From Paracoccaceae bacterium (GTDB lineage Bacteria; Pseudomonadota; Alphaproteobacteria; Rhodobacterales; Rhodobacteraceae): a DNA stretch of 64,000 nt. The position numbers and the translations under genes are program-made. The notes beneath the pieces are model-generated. The model saw nothing but the letters and a program-made list of their open reading frames with translations. It made no database searches and was not told the DNA's origin. Location: contig JAIXZY010000037.1 of assembly GCA_027489355.1 (NCBI GenBank), positions 1 to 64,000 of the forward strand, given 5' to 3'. This document shows, one piece after another, positions 49,237 to 59,456 of this stretch (position 1 is the first letter of the stretch; every line of letters starts with the position of its first letter).

Positions 49237-50382
49237 CTATGCCACCCGGCGACCCTGCACCCAGACGCCACGCACGGCACCCGCAGATCCGATCCGGGCG
49301 ACCCGGACCAGGTCCGCGCGGGCGTCGAGCGCGATGCGCCCCCGGTCCGCCAGTCCCACCGCCCCTGCCGGGGCCGACGTCACGGCAGAGACGCCACGGG
49401 AAACATCGCCCCACAGATCGCCCAGCATCAAGGCCGCCGAGAGGAGCGAAGAGGGCACGTAGTCCGAGGAGATGATGTCCAGAAGCTCTGCCTCGGCCAG
49501 TTCGCGCGCGGCGACGTTGCCCGAATGGCTGCCGCCGCGGATCAGGTTCGGCGCGCCCATCATCACCTTGATGGCGTGATCGGTGCAGGCCTGTGCGGCC
49601 TCGACCGTGGTGGGAAACTCGGCGAAATGCGCGCCATGTTCGGCCGAGCGGGCGACATGGGCGGTCTCGGTATCGTCATGGCTGGCCAGCACCGCGCCAT
49701 AGCGGCGGGCGGCTGCGACGGCGGCGGCCTCATGCGTGGCCCCGTGCTGGGCTTTCAGCGCCTTCTGCGCGGCGACATGGGCCTCGAACTCGGTCTCGCT
49801 GATGCCGTGCTTGCCCATGACATACTTGCGCAGCTGGGTCAGGTCGCGGAACTGCCGCTCACCGGGCGTGTGATCCATGAGACTGACGATGCCGATGCGG
49901 TCCTGGGGGCCGAACTTGTCCAGCTCTTCGACCAGCGTTTCCGAGCAGACCTCGGCCCGCAGATGCAGGAAGTGGCTGATCTTCAGCGCCCCCTCCGCCC
50001 GCAGGCCGAGGATTTCGTCCGCAAGCACCCGCGCGTATTCGCCGTAGTTCGCCTTGGCGTTCGACACGACCGAGCCCACCCGCAGCGCGTCGAACACCGT
50101 GGTGATTCCGACGCTGGCCAGTTCGGCGTCATGCGCGATGATGGCGGCGGCATGGGGCCAGTCGACCTTGGGGCGCGGTTCGATGTGGCGTTCCAGATTG
50201 TCGGTGTGCAGCTCGATCAGGCCGGGCATCAGCAGGTCGCCGCCACAGTCTTCGGCGCCGGCTGGAACCGCGCTGCCCTGGGCGATCTCGGCGATCCGGC
50301 CGTCGACGATCCGGACCTGGCCGCGCAGGGTTTCGTCCGGCAGGACGAGGGTGGCATTGGCAAGGATGGTGTCGCGGGTCAT
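49237..50382 (-). CDS. phnM: Alpha-D-ribose 1-methylphosphonate 5-triphosphate diphosphatase (PhnM)
   Basis: PhnM removes pyrophosphate from ribosyl-alkylphosphonate triphosphate in the C-P lyase pathway. The 381-residue amidohydrolase-fold protein has PGLIELHTDNLERHIEPRPKVDWP (near 53-76), DHTPGERQF, LASHDDTETAHVARSAEHGAHFAEFPTT (near 230-257), MGAPNLIRGGSHSGNVAARELAEAELLDIISSDYVPSSLL and the GLADRGRIALDARADLV end. It diverges from the DUF1045 gene with 95 bases between. A second, partial phnM-like gene is at 63178. Confidence 0.96.
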   Translation of the reverse strand: MTRDTILANATLVLPDETLRGQVRIVDGRIAEIAQGSAVPAGAEDCGGDLLMPGLIELHTDNLERHIEPRPKVDWPHAAAIIAHDAELASVGITTVFDALRVGSVVSNAKANYGEYARVLADEILGLRAEGALKISHFLHLRAEVCSETLVEELDKFGPQDRIGIVSLMDHTPGERQFRDLTQLRKYVMGKHGISETEFEAHVAAQKALKAQHGATHEAAAVAAARRYGAVLASHDDTETAHVARSAEHGAHFAEFPTTVEAAQACTDHAIKVMMGAPNLIRGGSHSGNVAARELAEAELLDIISSDYVPSSLLSAALMLGDLWGDVSRGVSAVTSAPAGAVGLADRGRIALDARADLVRVARIGSAGAVRGVWVQGRRVA

Positions 50383-51158: not shown

Positions 51159-51664
51159 AGCGCGGCGAGGAGGCGGGCGATGCCCACCTCGGGCGCGGCG
51201 TCGTTGATCACGGTCTGGAAGGCAAATCCGTCGGGCATCTGGAAGGCGGCGCGGCCGAGGCGGGCGCGGATCTCTGCGGCGGTCTCGCGGCCACGGGCGG
51301 CAAGGCGGGCGGCCAGGACGATGTCGGGCGCGGTAACGAGGATCACGCGGAGGCCGGGAAAGAGGCGGGCGGCCTCGGGCAAGGCGGCGCGGCTGCCGTT
51401 GAACAGCACATCGCCGGGACCCGTCAGCTGGTCCCTGGGGAGGCCGTAGGACAACCCGTGCGCCTGCCAGGTCAGCGCGAAGTCGCCGCGGGTCTGACGG
51501 CGGGCGAAGTCTTCGGGTGTGACGCCGTCAAACGCCTCGCCGCCGGCTTCGGTGGGGCGGGTGATGACGCGGCGGACGAGCCGCAGGTCCGGCCGGGCGG
51601 CGAGTGCCCCGCGGATCAGCGTGTCCTTGCCCGCGCCCGAGGGTCCGACGACGGCGAAGATCAT
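51140..51664 (-). CDS. phnN: Ribose 1,5-bisphosphate phosphokinase (PhnN)
   Basis: PhnN phosphorylates ribose 1,5-bisphosphate to PRPP, the last step of C-P lyase carbon salvage. The 174-residue kinase has Walker A GPSGAGKDT (near 7-15) and the RVITRP segment (near 32-37), as in guanylate kinase-like PhnN. The FALTWQAHGLSYGLP segment (near 63-77) resembles the guanylate-kinase-fold nucleotide region. Its start overlaps phnL by ATGA. It is the last gene of the phnGHIJKLN run. Confidence 0.95.
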   Translation of the reverse strand: MIFAVVGPSGAGKDTLIRGALAARPDLRLVRRVITRPTEAGGEAFDGVTPEDFARRQTRGDFALTWQAHGLSYGLPRDQLTGPGDVLFNGSRAALPEAARLFPGLRVILVTAPDIVLAARLAARGRETAAEIRARLGRAAFQMPDGFAFQTVINDAAPEVGIARLLAALQPVRA

Positions 51665-52356
51665 GCGGCGGCCCCTGTCTTTGGCGTGAAGCCAGTCACG
51701 TCCACCAGTCGGTCGCAGACGCGGGCGCGCGCCGTCTCGTCGTGGAAAATCCCCAGGATCGCGGCGCCGCGGGCCTTGGCTTCCTCGATCAGCGACAGGA
51801 CAACCTCGCGGTTGGCGGCGTCGAGGCTGGCGGTCGGTTCGTCCAGCAGAAGGGCCGGGTAGGCATGGGCGAAGCCGCGCGCGATGTTGACGCGCTGCTG
51901 CTCGCCGCCCGAGAAGGTGGTGGGCGACAGGGACCAGAGCCGTTCCGGGATGTTGAGACGGCGGAGAAGATGCGCGGCACGGTCGCGGGCCTGGTCGGCC
52001 GGGGTGCCGATGGCAAGAAGCGGCTCGGCCACCACCTCGAGCGTCGGGACACGCGGCACGACGCGGAGAAACTGGCTGACATAGCCCAGCGTATGACGAC
52101 GCAGCGCGATGATCTGGCGGGGCTCGGCGCTGGCGACATCGGTGTCGCCGACGATCAGTTGGCCCCCCGCGATCAGGTAGTTGCCGTAGACCATGCGCAT
52201 AAGGGTGGATTTCCCGGCGCCGGACTGGCCGGTCAGGCCCACGCATTCGCCCGGGGCCACGCTGAGCGACGCCCCGGCCATCACCGGGATCACCGCGCCG
52301 CCCTGGTTGTGCAGGGTGAAGGACTTGGACAGGGAGTCGATGCGGATCATGGTCAC
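51661..52356 (-). CDS. phnL: Phosphonate C-P lyase system protein PhnL (ABC-type ATPase)
   Basis: The 231-residue protein is an ABC-type ATPase that works with the C-P lyase complex, not as a transporter. It has Walker A GQSGAGKST (near 42-50), a Q-loop region, signature SGGEQQR (near 147-153) and Walker B LLLDEPTASLD (near 169-179). The start at 52356 overlaps phnK. All motif residues are intact. Confidence 0.95.
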   Translation of the reverse strand: MTMIRIDSLSKSFTLHNQGGAVIPVMAGASLSVAPGECVGLTGQSGAGKSTLMRMVYGNYLIAGGQLIVGDTDVASAEPRQIIALRRHTLGYVSQFLRVVPRVPTLEVVAEPLLAIGTPADQARDRAAHLLRRLNIPERLWSLSPTTFSGGEQQRVNIARGFAHAYPALLLDEPTASLDAANREVVLSLIEEAKARGAAILGIFHDETARARVCDRLVDVTGFTPKTGAAA

Positions 52357-53153
52357 ACCTGCAGGACGGAAGAGACGAGAAGCTGGGTATAGGCGTGCTG
52401 CGGATCGTCCAGGACCTGGTCGGTCAGGCCCTGTTCCACCACGCGGCCGGACTTCATCACCATCAATCGATGCGCAAGCAGGCGGACGACGGCGAGGTCA
52501 TGCGTCACGATGATGACCGACAGGCCGAGGTCGCGGACCAGACCGCGCAACAGGTCCAGGAGCCGTGCCTGCACGCTGACGTCGAGACCGCCCGTGGGTT
52601 CGTCCATGAACACCAGCCGCGGCGAGGTGACGAGGTTGCGCGCGATCTGGAGCCGCTGCTGCATCCCGCCCGAGAAGGCCGAGGGACGGTCGTCCACCCG
52701 GTCCGCCGCGATCTCGACCCGGCCGAGCCAGTCGACCGCCTTGCCGCGGATCTGGCCGTAGTGCCGCGCGCCGACGGCCATGAGGCGTTCGCCAACATTG
52801 CCGCCCGCGCTGACGCCCATCCGCAGCCCGTCGCGCGGGTTCTGGTGGACATAGGCCCAGTCGGTCCGCGACAGGCGCCGGCGGTCCGTTTCGGACATGG
52901 CCAGCACGTCGCGACCGTCATAGGCGATCCGCCCCAGATCGGCGCGCTGGTGGCCCGCCAGGCAGGAGAGGAGCGTGGACTTTCCCGAGCCGCTTTCGCC
53001 GACGATCCCCAGCACCTCGCCGGGATAGAGGTCGAACGAGACATCCGCGCAGCCGATGCGGGAGCCGTAGCGTTTCGTCAGGCCCTCGACCTTCAGAAGC
53101 GGTTGATCCGGGCCATGAATTTTCTGCGAAAATTCCGGGGTATGCAGGGTCAT
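52353..53153 (-). CDS. phnK: Phosphonate C-P lyase system protein PhnK (ABC-type ATPase)
   Basis: This 266-residue ABC-type ATPase binds the PhnGHIJ core in the known complex. It shows Walker A GESGSGKST (near 54-62), signature SGGMQQRLQIAR (near 162-173), Walker B VFMDEPTGGLD (near 182-192) and the H-loop THDLAVVRLLAHRLMVM. It has an N-terminal extension (HTPEFSQKIHGPDQPLLKVEGL) of about 20 residues. It is coupled to phnJ and phnL by 4-base overlaps. Confidence 0.95.
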   Translation of the reverse strand: MTLHTPEFSQKIHGPDQPLLKVEGLTKRYGSRIGCADVSFDLYPGEVLGIVGESGSGKSTLLSCLAGHQRADLGRIAYDGRDVLAMSETDRRRLSRTDWAYVHQNPRDGLRMGVSAGGNVGERLMAVGARHYGQIRGKAVDWLGRVEIAADRVDDRPSAFSGGMQQRLQIARNLVTSPRLVFMDEPTGGLDVSVQARLLDLLRGLVRDLGLSVIIVTHDLAVVRLLAHRLMVMKSGRVVEQGLTDQVLDDPQHAYTQLLVSSVLQV

Positions 53154-54025
53154 GCGGGGTCTCCCAGCCGTCCGGTGTGGCCCTTGGCCCGCCGTCCGGC
53201 GCAGAAATCGGTGTCGGAACAGACAAACATCCGCCTGCCCGCGTCGTCGGTGATCACCTCGTCCAGGTAGCTGTCCCGCGCGCCGCAGAGGTCGCAGTCG
53301 TGCGGCGCCTTGGAGGCCGTGAAGGGGTGGTCCTCGAAATCCAGGCTCACCGCCTCGGTCCAGGGCGGCAGCGCATAGATCCGCTGCTCGCGGCCCGCGC
53401 CGAAGAGCTGGATCGCCGGATTGCCGGACAGTTTCGGATTGTCGAACTTCGGGATCGGCGAGGGGTCCATCACATATCGCCCTTCGATCTTCACCGGGTA
53501 GGCGTAGCTGGTGGCGATCTGTCCGTGCCGGGCGATGTCCTCGTACAGCTTCACATGCATCAGCCCGTATTCCTCCAGCTCGTGCATCTTTCGCGTCTCG
53601 GTCTCGCGCGGTTCCAGGAAGCGGAGCGGTTCGGGGATCGGGACCTGGTAGACGAGGACCTGGCCCTCCCGCAGCGGGGTCTCGGGGATGCGGTGGCGGG
53701 TCTGGATGACGGTGGCCTCGGTGGTCGCTTCGGTCACGGCCACCCCGGCGGTGCGCTGGAAGAAGCGGCGGATGCTGACGGCGTTGGTGGTGTCGTCCGC
53801 GCCCTGGTCGATGACCTTGAGCCGGTCCTCAGGCGTCAGGCAGGCCGCCGTCACCTGCACGCCGCCCGTGCCCCAGCCATAGGGCATCGGCATCTCGCGG
53901 CTGGCGAATGGGACCTGATAGCCCGGAATGGCGATCCCCTTCAGGATCGCGCGCCGGATCATCCGCTTCGTCTGTTCGTCCAGATAGGCGAAGGTGTAGT
54001 CGCCCTGGGAACCGAGGTCAGACAT
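53150..54025 (-). CDS. phnJ: C-P lyase, radical SAM core subunit PhnJ
   Basis: PhnJ cleaves the carbon-phosphorus bond of ribosyl phosphonate phosphate using a [4Fe-4S] cluster and S-adenosylmethionine. The 291-residue protein has FAYLDEQTKRMIRRAILKGIAIPGYQVPFASREMPMPYGWGTGGVQVTA at the N-terminus. Four C-terminal cysteines, C244, C247, C269 and C275 (PHDCDLCGARD, FVCSDTDFC), are in the arrangement known for E. coli PhnJ (C241, C244, C266, C272). All are present, so the enzyme looks active. A 105-base gap lies between phnI and this gene. Confidence 0.98.
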   Translation of the reverse strand: MSDLGSQGDYTFAYLDEQTKRMIRRAILKGIAIPGYQVPFASREMPMPYGWGTGGVQVTAACLTPEDRLKVIDQGADDTTNAVSIRRFFQRTAGVAVTEATTEATVIQTRHRIPETPLREGQVLVYQVPIPEPLRFLEPRETETRKMHELEEYGLMHVKLYEDIARHGQIATSYAYPVKIEGRYVMDPSPIPKFDNPKLSGNPAIQLFGAGREQRIYALPPWTEAVSLDFEDHPFTASKAPHDCDLCGARDSYLDEVITDDAGRRMFVCSDTDFCAGRRAKGHTGRLGDPA

Positions 54026-54130: not shown

Positions 54131-55303
54131 TCATTCGGCCGCCTCGCGCATCGCCACCGCCTCGGCCCGGAGCTTCCGGACCAGCTCCAGCTCGGCCTGG
54201 AAGTCGACGTAGTGCGGCAGCTTGATATGCTCCAGGAACCCGGTGGCCTGGATGTTGTCGCAGTGCATCAGGACGAATTCCTCGTCCTGAGCGGGGGCGC
54301 CGGTGAAGTCTTCTCCCAGTTCCTGCCAGCGCAGGCTGCGGTCGACGAGGGACATGGCGATGGCCTTGCGTTCGGACTGGCCCATCACGAGGCCATAGCC
54401 CCGAGTGAACTGTGGGGGTTCGGTGCGTGAGCCCTTGAACTGGTTCACTGTCTCGCATTCCGTGAGCTCGATCTCACCGATCTCGACCGCGAATCCCAGT
54501 TCCGGGATGTCCACCTCGACTGCCACAGTGCCGATGCGCAGCTCGCCGACGAAGGCATGGGTCCGACCGTAGCCGCGCTGGGTGGAGTAGGCCATCGACA
54601 GGATGAAGCCTTCGTCCCCCCGGGCCAGCGCCTGCAGGCGGAGCGTCCGGTCGGCGGGAAGCTCCATCGGCTCGCGGGTCAGGTCGGGGGGCGTGGCGTC
54701 GGAAGGATTGGCGGTCTCGATCAGGCCGTCCCGGTTGAGGAAGCTCGTCACATGGGGGATGCGCGGCGCCCCCCCACCCCATCCCTCCCCCACGCGGGGG
54801 GAGGGAGGCGCTTTGGGGTCATGGGTGTGCGAAACGGTTGGGCCGGGAGCCTCCCCTCCCCCCGGTGGGGAGGGGATGGGGGTGGGGGGATCCCCCTCGG
54901 CCATCAGCGCAAAATCCAGCAGGCGGTGCGTATAGTCGAAGGTCGGCCCCAGCACCTGACCGCCCGGCAGGTCCTTGAAAGTCGCCGAAATCCGCCGGTC
55001 CACCGCCATCCCGCCGGTGTCCACCGGGTTCGAGGCCGCAAGGCGCGGGAGGGTCGTGCGATAGGCGCGGATCAGGAACACCGCCTCGATCAGGTCGCCG
55101 CGCGCCTGCTTGATCGCCAGCGCCGCAAGGTCGGGGTCATAGAGCGAGCCTTCGGCCATCACGCGGTTGACGGCCAGGGCCATCTGCTCGCGGATCTGGG
55201 GGATCGTCAGTTCAGGGACCGTGGGGGCGCCACGACGCTCCTCGGCCAGCCATTGGTGCGCATTGTCGATGGCGCGTTCGCCACCCTTGACGGCCACATA
55301 CAT
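54131..55303 (-). CDS. phnI: C-P lyase subunit PhnI, carrying an in-frame palindromic element insertion
   Basis: PhnI exchanges adenine of ATP for the phosphonate (with PhnG, H and L). The 390-residue protein begins YVAVKGGERAIDNAHQWLAEERRG and has QIREQMALAVNRVMAEGSLYDPDLAALAIKQARGDLIEAVFLIRAYR (near 36-82). VNQFKGSRTEPPQFTRGYGLVMGQSERKAIAMSLVDRSL and NIQATGFLEHIKLPHYVDFQAELELVRKLR lie near the end. Residues about 139-180 (TPIPSPPGGGE to RVGEGWGGGAP) are encoded by the repeat at 54766-54889. They have no counterpart in the usual roughly 350-residue PhnI. Its first base overlaps the phnH stop codon. Confidence 0.95.
   Translation of the reverse strand: MYVAVKGGERAIDNAHQWLAEERRGAPTVPELTIPQIREQMALAVNRVMAEGSLYDPDLAALAIKQARGDLIEAVFLIRAYRTTLPRLAASNPVDTGGMAVDRRISATFKDLPGGQVLGPTFDYTHRLLDFALMAEGDPPTPIPSPPGGGEAPGPTVSHTHDPKAPPSPRVGEGWGGGAPRIPHVTSFLNRDGLIETANPSDATPPDLTREPMELPADRTLRLQALARGDEGFILSMAYSTQRGYGRTHAFVGELRIGTVAVEVDIPELGFAVEIGEIELTECETVNQFKGSRTEPPQFTRGYGLVMGQSERKAIAMSLVDRSLRWQELGEDFTGAPAQDEEFVLMHCDNIQATGFLEHIKLPHYVDFQAELELVRKLRAEAVAMREAAE
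54766..54889. repeat. Interspersed palindromic element, copy 1, inside phnI
   Basis: The left end (CCCCCCACCCCATCCC-type) and right end (GATGGGGGTGGGGGG-type) are inverted repeats. Two inner hairpins (CCCTCCCCCACGCGGGGGGAGGG-like and CTCCCC/GGGGAG) lie between them. It is about 124 bp and closely matches the copy at 59318-59438. It stays open in the phnI frame. Confidence 0.85.
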
Positions 55304-55878
55304 CAGATCGCCTCCACGCGGGTGGATCGGGGCAGGCCGGCGATGCGGTCGCCGGCGGTGAAAAGCGTGTCGAAGCCCAAGGGGAACAGCGCCCGGTTGG
55401 CGCGGAAAGTCGCCGTCTCGGGCAGGTTGAGCCAGGTCGCCGTCTCGATCCCGGGGCCGGTCAGACAGGGCCCGTGGTTCACGAGGCGGTCGACTTCGAC
55501 GATCAAGGTGGCAGAGCGGTCGGGATAGTCGGGCTGGCCGATCCTGAAGCGGGAGACGGGGTGCAATGCCTCCCAGGTGCCAACGGCAAAGTCCGCCTCT
55601 TCGGCGGGGGTGAGCGGCGCGCCGATGTGGAAGGCGACCCAGTCGCGGACGGGTGCGCAGTCGGCGCGGCCTGCGAGGTGGAGCCGCGTTGTGGGATCGG
55701 CCAGGACGAGGAGCGCGGTGCCCGCGGCGATGGACAAGGGTTCCGGCGGTCGCGCACCCTGAACCTGGCGGATCGTGCCGGGGCGGGCCATCGCCTCCAG
55801 GATTTCGCGGAAGGCGCGAGCGGACTGGATGGGGGCCTCGGTGAAGCCGCCTTCGAGGGCATCTGCTGCGGCGATCAT
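55303..55878 (-). CDS. phnH: C-P lyase subunit PhnH
   Basis: The 191-residue accessory subunit of the PhnGHIJ complex begins AAADALEGGFTEAPIQSARAFREILEAMARPGTI, the family start. Further matches are RADCAPVRDWVAFHIGAPLTPAEEADFAVGTWEALHP and DYPDRSATLIVEVDRL, then LTGPGIETATWL. The start overlaps the phnG stop codon by four bases, and the stop overlaps phnI by one. The exact catalytic role of PhnH is structural in known complexes. Confidence 0.96.
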   Translation of the reverse strand: MIAAADALEGGFTEAPIQSARAFREILEAMARPGTIRQVQGARPPEPLSIAAGTALLVLADPTTRLHLAGRADCAPVRDWVAFHIGAPLTPAEEADFAVGTWEALHPVSRFRIGQPDYPDRSATLIVEVDRLVNHGPCLTGPGIETATWLNLPETATFRANRALFPLGFDTLFTAGDRIAGLPRSTRVEAI

Positions 55879-56318
55879 TTGTCCTCTCCCCTGACCATGG
55901 TGAAGAAATCGACCTTGGTGGCGGCGGCTTTTGTTGCGCGGGCGGTCTGCCGCGCCTCGGCCTCACTCTCCAGGGGGCGCAAGATACGCGCGGTCAGATC
56001 GTCCGCCGCGCCGGTCTGCATCAGCGCATCCAGCGCCGCCGCCCGCAGCGCATGGGTCCTGTCGCGCCCCTGTACCCAGGCGTGGCCGACTTCGCCGGTC
56101 TCCAGCCGGACCGAGGCACGGGTGACGGTCATTTCGCCCAGGTTGAAGGCCGCGCCCGTGGCCCCCACCCTGCCCCGCACCATGACCGCGCCGATCTCCG
56201 GCCGGCGAAGGACGTGGTGCGGCGGCAGGTCGGGAAAGAGAGCGGCCAGACGGGCCGGAGGGGCCTTGGCCAAAGTAGCCATCCGGGTCTTCCGGGCCAG
56301 TGGAGAGGTGTCGGTCAT
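55875..56318 (-). CDS. phnG: C-P lyase subunit PhnG
   Basis: This first gene of the C-P lyase operon encodes a 147-residue subunit, beginning TDTSPLARKTRMATLAKAPPARLAALFPDLPPHHVLRRPEIGAVMVRGR. The PhnG hallmark GATGAAFNLGEMTVTRASVRLETGEVGHAWVQGRDRTHALRAAALDALMQ (near 53-102) follows. I start at 56318. A further upstream ATG would add residues inside the operator region. The promoter region upstream carries a Pho box and a possible PhnF operator. Confidence 0.95.
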   Translation of the reverse strand: MTDTSPLARKTRMATLAKAPPARLAALFPDLPPHHVLRRPEIGAVMVRGRVGATGAAFNLGEMTVTRASVRLETGEVGHAWVQGRDRTHALRAAALDALMQTGAADDLTARILRPLESEAEARQTARATKAAATKVDFFTMVRGEDK

Positions 56319-56341
56319 CGGGGTCTCGACAGGTTGAGGGC

Positions 56342-56369
56342 TTGTCTGGTTTATTAGACAACTATACAA
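56342..56369. promoter_or_regulatory. Candidate PhnF/GntR operator in phnG-phnF gap
   Basis: The inverted repeat TTGTCTggtttattAGACAA (56342-56361) is followed by a further half-site TATACAA (56363-56369). Half-sites of this kind (TTGT..A / T..ACAA) fit the HutC/PhnF subfamily of GntR regulators. It lies in the divergent region and could control both phnG and phnF. Confidence 0.45.
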
Positions 56370-57811: not shown

Positions 57812-57967
57812 GGTTGCTTTACCTTGATTTCGGGCAGCCCCTCACCCCGGCCCTCTCCCCCCGGGAGAGAGGGGGCGCGGGTGTCGGGATCCGTGCCGGG
57901 CTTTTCGGCCCGGGGCTTGGGGACGCGGCGGGTGCCTCCGGCGGGAGTATTCGGGAAAAGAGCAAGC
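57812..57967. repeat. Repeat-containing gap between hexapeptide transferase gene and phnE
   Basis: The 156-base gap holds a GC-rich CCCTCTCCCCCC/GGGAGAGAGGG hairpin (57851-57873) and, just after the phnE stop codon, the 21-base motif 57945-57965 that recurs at 24756-24776. No gene or promoter can be supported here. Confidence 0.6.
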
Positions 57968-59290: not shown

Positions 59291-59317
59291 CGGTGCGCCC
59301 CTTGGGCTGGGGTGGGT

Positions 59318-59438
59318 GCGCCCCCTCCCCCTCCTTCCTCCACGCGGGGGGCGGGAGGCGCGAGGTGGCAAAGGTTGTGCAATGGGGCGGCGGGGTGGCT
59401 CCCCTCCCCCTTTGTGGGGAGGGGATGGGGGTGGGGGG
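59318..59438. repeat. Interspersed palindromic element, copy 2, between the two phnE genes
   Basis: This 121-bp element matches the phnI copy along nearly its whole length, with the same CCACGCGGGGGG inner hairpin, CTCCCCTCCCC segment and GGGGATGGGGGTGGGGGG end. It lies in the 166-base gap between two operon genes, so it did not break either. Confidence 0.85.
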
Positions 59439-59456
59439 CTGTGAGCGGACGGGACA

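Follow-up and report, generated by a model that had tools for sequence, protein, structure and literature searches.

Background

How does the gene for a core subunit of C-P lyase come to hold, in frame, a palindromic repeat that is also dispersed elsewhere in the genome, and what becomes of the protein that must accommodate it? Protein-coding palindromes became known from Rickettsia, a reduced genome in which weak selection could explain them, and the Rickettsia palindromic elements (RPE) were reportedly described by Ogata et al. in 2000 and 2002. The repeated in-frame presence of a repeat in the metabolic enzymes of a 4-Mb genome contrasts with that reduced genome. The locus considered here lies in a stretch of 64,000 nucleotides (the window), from a source genome of 4.2 Mb in 81 contigs whose genus is probably Tabrizicola. 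An original prediction, made from the letters of the window, had proposed that a palindromic element is inserted in frame in phnI, that it recurs between the two phnE genes and that it lengthens PhnI without breaking it.

A palindromic doublet read in frame within phnI

The features of the window on which the argument rests are as follows; arms were scored with model R1, a single-arm covariance model trained on 23 arms.

54131 to 55303, minus strand: phnI, C-P lyase core subunit with the insert (Pfam PhnI, translation)
54766 to 54889, minus strand: palindromic repeat doublet, in-frame reading DPPTPIPSPPGGGEAP...APPSPRVGEGWGGGAP (BLAST, folding, translation)
54847 to 54890, minus strand: first arm in the coding direction, subtype X (model R1, 61.3 bits)
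54768 to 54811, plus strand: second arm, inverted, subtype Y (model R1, 61.4 bits)
54812 to 54846, no strand: spacer between the phnI arms, varying in sequence and length among species
55303 to 56369, minus strand: phnG and phnH, open frames (Pfam PhnG, PhnH)
51661 to 54025, minus strand: phnJ and two ABC ATPase genes at the phnK and phnL places (Pfam PhnJ, ABC_tran; phnK and phnL named by position)
59318 to 59439, no strand: second doublet of the same family, between the permease (phnE) genes, with arms at 59318-59361 (plus, 34.6 bits) and 59395-59439 (minus, 63.2 bits)
57836 to 57878, plus strand: weaker related single arm (model R1, 28.9 bits, E 0.0015)

The predicted palindrome in phnI proved to be real: both arms score above 61 bits, the genome holds dispersed matches and the repeat, folded as DNA, outperforms all 200 of its dinucleotide shuffles (z -3.16). 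BLAST likewise places the expected copy between the two phnE genes, at 59315-59438 and 79% identical. Open frames make up the phn operon around the insert, namely phnG, phnH, phnJ, the two ABC ATPases, a phosphonate-binding protein and two permeases. Two observations on the neighbourhood may be recorded here. The single arm at 57836-57878 has CCCTCTCCC/GGGAGAGAGG arms, a similar-looking variant of which occurs in the phnI linker of genome G018; and a phnM-like ORF at 49237-50382, its identity read from the sequence, has no Pfam match at E 0.001.

On translation, phnI runs on the minus strand from an ATG at 55303 to a stop at 54131 as an uninterrupted frame of 390 amino acids, residues 1-381 of which form a single Pfam PhnI match of 538 bits, so that the protein is indeed unbroken by the insert. 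The predicted lengthening from about 350 to 390 residues stands in part: the protein has its 390 residues and the repeat is read as about 41-43 Pro/Gly-rich residues, but the net gain was overstated, being 17-30 residues, not 42, over the members of the genus that have no recognisable arm (360-373 residues, n=15; Escherichia coli PhnI has 354). The repeat occupies much of the place of a short variable linker rather than adding to it; in an alignment to the solved structure, residues 143-181 (39 residues) face residues 143-151 (9 residues) of E. coli PhnI. The zinc-site histidines of the E. coli protein are given as 328 and 333 (PMC9947105), and both fall outside the insert. As read from the translation, the insert is a Pro/Gly-rich loop joining two conserved PhnI blocks, and this loop would be flexible. 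An AlphaFold model of PhnI built from a 40-row alignment (P0001 and 39 close relatives) has a mean pLDDT of 42, too poor to give ground for a disordered loop.

Anatomy and copy number of the repeat family

A doublet is made up of two GC-rich arms in inverted orientation, both palindromic in their own right and about 45 nt long, with 33-42 nt of spacer between them (about 35 in phnI). At E <= 0.01 the source genome contains at least 37 arms (R1 search, 150 of 2328 candidates scored), those listed comprising 8 doublets (16 arms), all with the same inverted arm order, and 21 singles, two of which are weak and stand in tandem on one contig. By BLAST, the phnI repeat has at least 47 matches in its own genome (40 of 73 candidates scored; some are both strands of one palindrome), the best non-self match having an E value of 3.5e-32. 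None of the 23 arms carries a GTAG or CGTC tag on either strand.

Doublets are 122-132 nt long and unusually free of stops: 41 of their 48 frames are open, a mean of 5.1 of 6 per doublet versus 3.5 of 6 in 3000 segments of 124 nt drawn at random from the window. Since 17 of 18 frames are open in the three doublets that clearly lie between genes, this scarcity of stops is not a product of selection within genes. Taken together, it is very probable that the element is a REPIN-like miniature palindromic repeat, dispersed in the genome and tolerated in frame within the PhnI linker.

Copies inside other genes

The search for further in-gene copies suggested by the original prediction was fruitful. 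Twenty-six of the 29 units of the source genome were examined together with 1.5 kb of flanking sequence to either side (the other three are singles, weak or listed late), and seven of the 26 lie in frame inside genes, named here by their Pfam families:

Doublets: phnI, cobN, nnrD, and one between the domains of a Polyketide_cyc2/Abhydrolase protein
Singles: a P-type ATPase gene, xdhC and hrpB

The copy in the two-domain hydrolase is counted on the basis of an open frame and a Pfam domain on either side, and failed the coding-composition filter; a doublet at the very start of a permease ORF on contig C79 was left out of the count. Most copies of the family are intergenic, and 13 of the 19 remaining units sit no more than 40 nt from the stop codon of an ORF whose composition resembles that of coding sequence. 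No broken gene was noticed around the units examined.

Alignments to solved structures place several of these inserts at gaps, as in PhnI. NnrD residues 374-423 face 341-347 of the TM0922 protein, and HrpB 487-540 face 481-489 of a solved structure, the latter gap exceeding the repeat itself; an insertion gap in the P-type ATPase is more weakly supported than those of PhnI, NnrD and HrpB, and the alignment of XdhC is too weak to be informative. The encoded peptide is similar among phnI orthologues, while the phnI, cobN and nnrD copies are read in different frames. Elsewhere, at locus L014, a single arm lies just ahead of a bchB-like gene (protein identity by reading).

Presence and absence of the phnI insert across species

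At E <= 0.001 with model R1, the 25 phnI loci of the genus with a readable linker divide into six with both arms (G000, G001, G002, G007, G024, G026), four with one arm (G006, G018, which is weak, G025 and G027) and 15 with none. Comparison with sister species, as the original prediction had advised, thus finds that presence differs and that the insert is not universal, E. coli also being without it. Among 73 other PhnI loci, mostly from other genera, two have both arms (Gemmobacter megaterium L075, Pseudotabrizicola alkalilacus L085) and one has a single arm (L076). Genome G007 also contains a second, divergent phnI-like region (C1:1086482-1088471; L063, L066).

A tree of the phnI core, with the linker removed, was built from 24 members of the genus together with 17 of 80 named loci, 41 rows in all. 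Four well-supported sister pairs differ in the insert (with/without: G001/G020, G007/G028, Gemmobacter megaterium/nectariphilus, Pseudotabrizicola alkalilacus/G012), and the phnI insert therefore comes or goes repeatedly; G024 and G026 both carry it. The tree requires a minimum of seven changes, a figure that is soft because 21 of its 38 inner branches are open, at least four changes being firm. These changes may be gains or losses: loss is as possible as gain, since several of the 15 arm-less linkers resemble, by eye, decayed or related repeats. The first arm of P. alkalilacus is in a different reading frame from that of the Tabrizicola species, which favours either an independent event or an indel that came later.

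Selection on PhnI

In 12 pairs, dN/dS of the phnI core ranges from 0.048 to 0.126. Pairs in which at least one member has the full insert span this whole range, overlapping with the other four pairs (0.051-0.109); the highest value, 0.126, belongs to a pair with one insert-bearing member, and G024/G026, which have the insert in common, give 0.085 at a dS of 0.20. Judged by these substitution ratios, the phnI core is under purifying selection, insert-bearing species included, which speaks for a working phnI gene with the insert in place and for a protein that would tolerate it. A phnI pseudogene in the window was considered and is not supported, given the open frame and the low core dN/dS. Against a working gene stands G025, in which the frame of phnI (L061) shifts directly behind the repeat, close to a G run, in a fragmented assembly that is 81% complete; the shift could reflect either faulty assembly or a genuine cost of G runs, and the G and C runs of the repeat may be prone to slippage.

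NnrD and CobN loops as recurrent sites

The corresponding loops of NnrD and CobN hold different palindromes in different species. Among NnrD loops (24 readable of 30 loci), eight contain both arms of the R1 family, five a family B doublet (CCCGGGCTTGACCCGGG type), two of these together with the R1 family, five the nearly perfect palindrome of family C, and eight a short or other sequence ('short' by eye). Among CobN loops (26 readable of 30 loci), the R1 family is present with both arms in five and with one arm in five, family B in four, two of them beside one R1-family arm, and the rest, in classes assigned by eye, comprise 11 short linkers and three decayed-looking sequences. Because unrelated families occupy one loop, a single insertion is excluded for NnrD and CobN.

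Family B is multi-copy: G001 has 47 matches and G020 has 32, if both strands and lone arms are included; the source genome has one match. Family C at full length is mostly found in nnrD, where its six best places lie; further copies and lone arms occur elsewhere, and the family has no match in the source genome. By eye, family B appears to resemble CGTC-type and family C GTAG-type REPs. Besides the R1 family, then, two palindromic families are read in frame in the NnrD loops (L179-L207) and one in the CobN loops (L209-L235), sometimes adjoining the R1 family.

Distribution and possible mobility

Scoring 150 candidates in each of 32 genus genomes at E <= 0.001 gives anything from 0 to 91 arms per genome. 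Where phnI has the full insert the count is 34-91, versus 1-47 where phnI has no arm (Mann-Whitney p 8e-4, relatedness uncorrected). In a family-wide sample of 198 genomes, scored under stricter filters with 31 candidates per genome, matches at E <= 1e-4 occur in 16; five of these reach 20 or more, and two of the five are members of the genus. The occurrence of the repeat across the family is patchy.

The repeat would be mobile, and possible movers are a former RAYT that has since been lost, an unrelated transposase, or recombination. No RAYT (Y1_Tnp) match was found in the source genome, nor any above the Pfam cut-off in the 32 genus genomes, with five of 14 control genomes positive; two Y1_Tnp matches just under the cut-off in genus genomes lie at loci without an arm. 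In the syntenic comparisons G001/G020 and G024/G026, no target-site duplication was resolved and no clean empty site was found, the compared sites differing by more than the element. One intergenic site has the doublet in G024 and the first arm alone in G026, so one of the two forms can become the other. Another site has an R1-family doublet in G026 (L251) and a different small palindrome in G024 (L247).

Alternative explanations and a proposed course of events

A reading without transposition, in which loops and intergenic gaps swap repeats by recombination or gene conversion with dispersed copies, would explain why the linkers look replaced, not split. It gains from the lack of a RAYT in the source genome and, above the cut-off, in the 32 genus genomes, from the target duplications that were not resolved in two species pairs, and from sites, both in genes and between them, with one palindrome where a relative has another. 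We nevertheless think it rather unlikely, as the flanks and spacers are, by eye, unrelated among copies, leaving recombination just the arms of about 45 nt, and as arm counts of 0-91 within the genus need multiplication or heavy loss. That phnI instead received the insert in a single ancestral insertion followed by many losses agrees with the common order and frame of the full Tabrizicola inserts and with the graded remnants; it is unlikely in view of the scattering of insert-bearing rows on the (poorly resolved) phnI tree, the other frame of the first arm in P. alkalilacus, and the unrelated families in the NnrD and CobN loops, which mean several events, at least there.

The insert could also be kept for a function, as a flexible loop tuning C-P lyase assembly or as an mRNA hairpin shifting the ratio of subunits. 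The strong hairpin (folded as DNA), the presence of the insert in both G024 and G026 over a synonymous distance of 0.2 and the second copy between the phnE genes are what such a role might produce, yet 15 of 25 genus genes have no arm, sister species differ, unrelated proteins carry similar inserts and the NnrD and CobN loops are filled by other families, and we hold this explanation to be quite improbable. Least credible, and in our judgement close to untenable, is that a native Pro/Gly-rich linker was turned repeat-like by slippage: linker length does vary among relatives, but the DNA matches genome copies, unrelated genes included, at E values down to 3.5e-32.

The course of events that we propose is that a REPIN-like element, consisting of two inverted REP arms and a spacer, would be dispersed in Tabrizicola and some other members of the family, and, having few stops in any frame, could reside in a gene when a permissive loop and a frame-keeping length coincide. 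In phnI it would replace the short variable linker between conserved blocks and be read as a Pro/Gly-rich loop; the enzyme would tolerate this loop, the gene would remain under selection, and the element could erode to a single arm, or a sister species could be without it. Other palindromic families are found in the same loop of NnrD and of CobN. We suggest further, tentatively and as a proposal somewhat more apt to fail than to hold, that NnrD and CobN (with several families) and PhnI (with one family and its variants), and probably more loops, are landing pads for repeated in-frame linker replacement, an ongoing mutational process to which a REPIN-like family moving with no RAYT would contribute. 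If true, these loops would represent an ongoing rewriting of protein linkers within one bacterial genus.

Comparison with known systems

The lower figure for the length of RPE is about 100 bp. Published accounts describe RPE as short palindromes translated in frame within unrelated, apparently working genes (PMC10969869, PMC3733652), and one of them gives a length of about 150 bp (PMC10969869). The doublets described here are akin to RPE in being palindromic (z -3.16) and, at 122-132 nt, within the RPE size range, and in lying in frame in unrelated open genes (7 of 26 units), with evidence of selection from phnI. They differ in belonging to Paracoccaceae and to a GC-rich genome and in their very GC-rich sequence, and are likened by behaviour alone; the resemblance to Rickettsia elements named in the original prediction thus applies to in-frame residence in open genes, with descent lying outside it.

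REPINs are described as two inverted REPs with a short spacer, occurring in tens of copies, mostly intergenic, with singles beside doublets (PMC3733652). The present family matches this account in its eight doublets of inverted arms with spacers of 33-42 nt, its singles, its mostly intergenic positions and its tens of copies. It differs in having neither GTAG nor CGTC (0 of 23 arms) and in that the 32 genus genomes gave no RAYT match above the cut-off; it represents a REPIN-like family that reaches tens of copies without a visible RAYT.

The same source reports REPs within ORFs, read in frame, in several bacteria, and different REPs at about the same recB site in two Xanthomonas; it identifies CGTC repeats inside R. 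conorii genes as RPE-4 and RPE-6, and proposes that an insertion may be neutral where it falls in a flexible linker or loop (PMC3733652). Intragenic REPs having been published, the kind of element is already known. In a partial coverage of the literature, by title and the opening of the abstract, no account of such elements in Tabrizicola or Rhodobacteraceae was found. The species pairs that differ in the insert constitute natural with/without sets in which repeat-driven remodelling of protein loops can be tested. Like the intragenic GTAG and CGTC REPs, the repeats described here lie within ORFs and in frame; unlike them, the present family carries neither tag, and within one genus the NnrD and CobN loops hold different families according to species, while PhnI holds one family and its variants.
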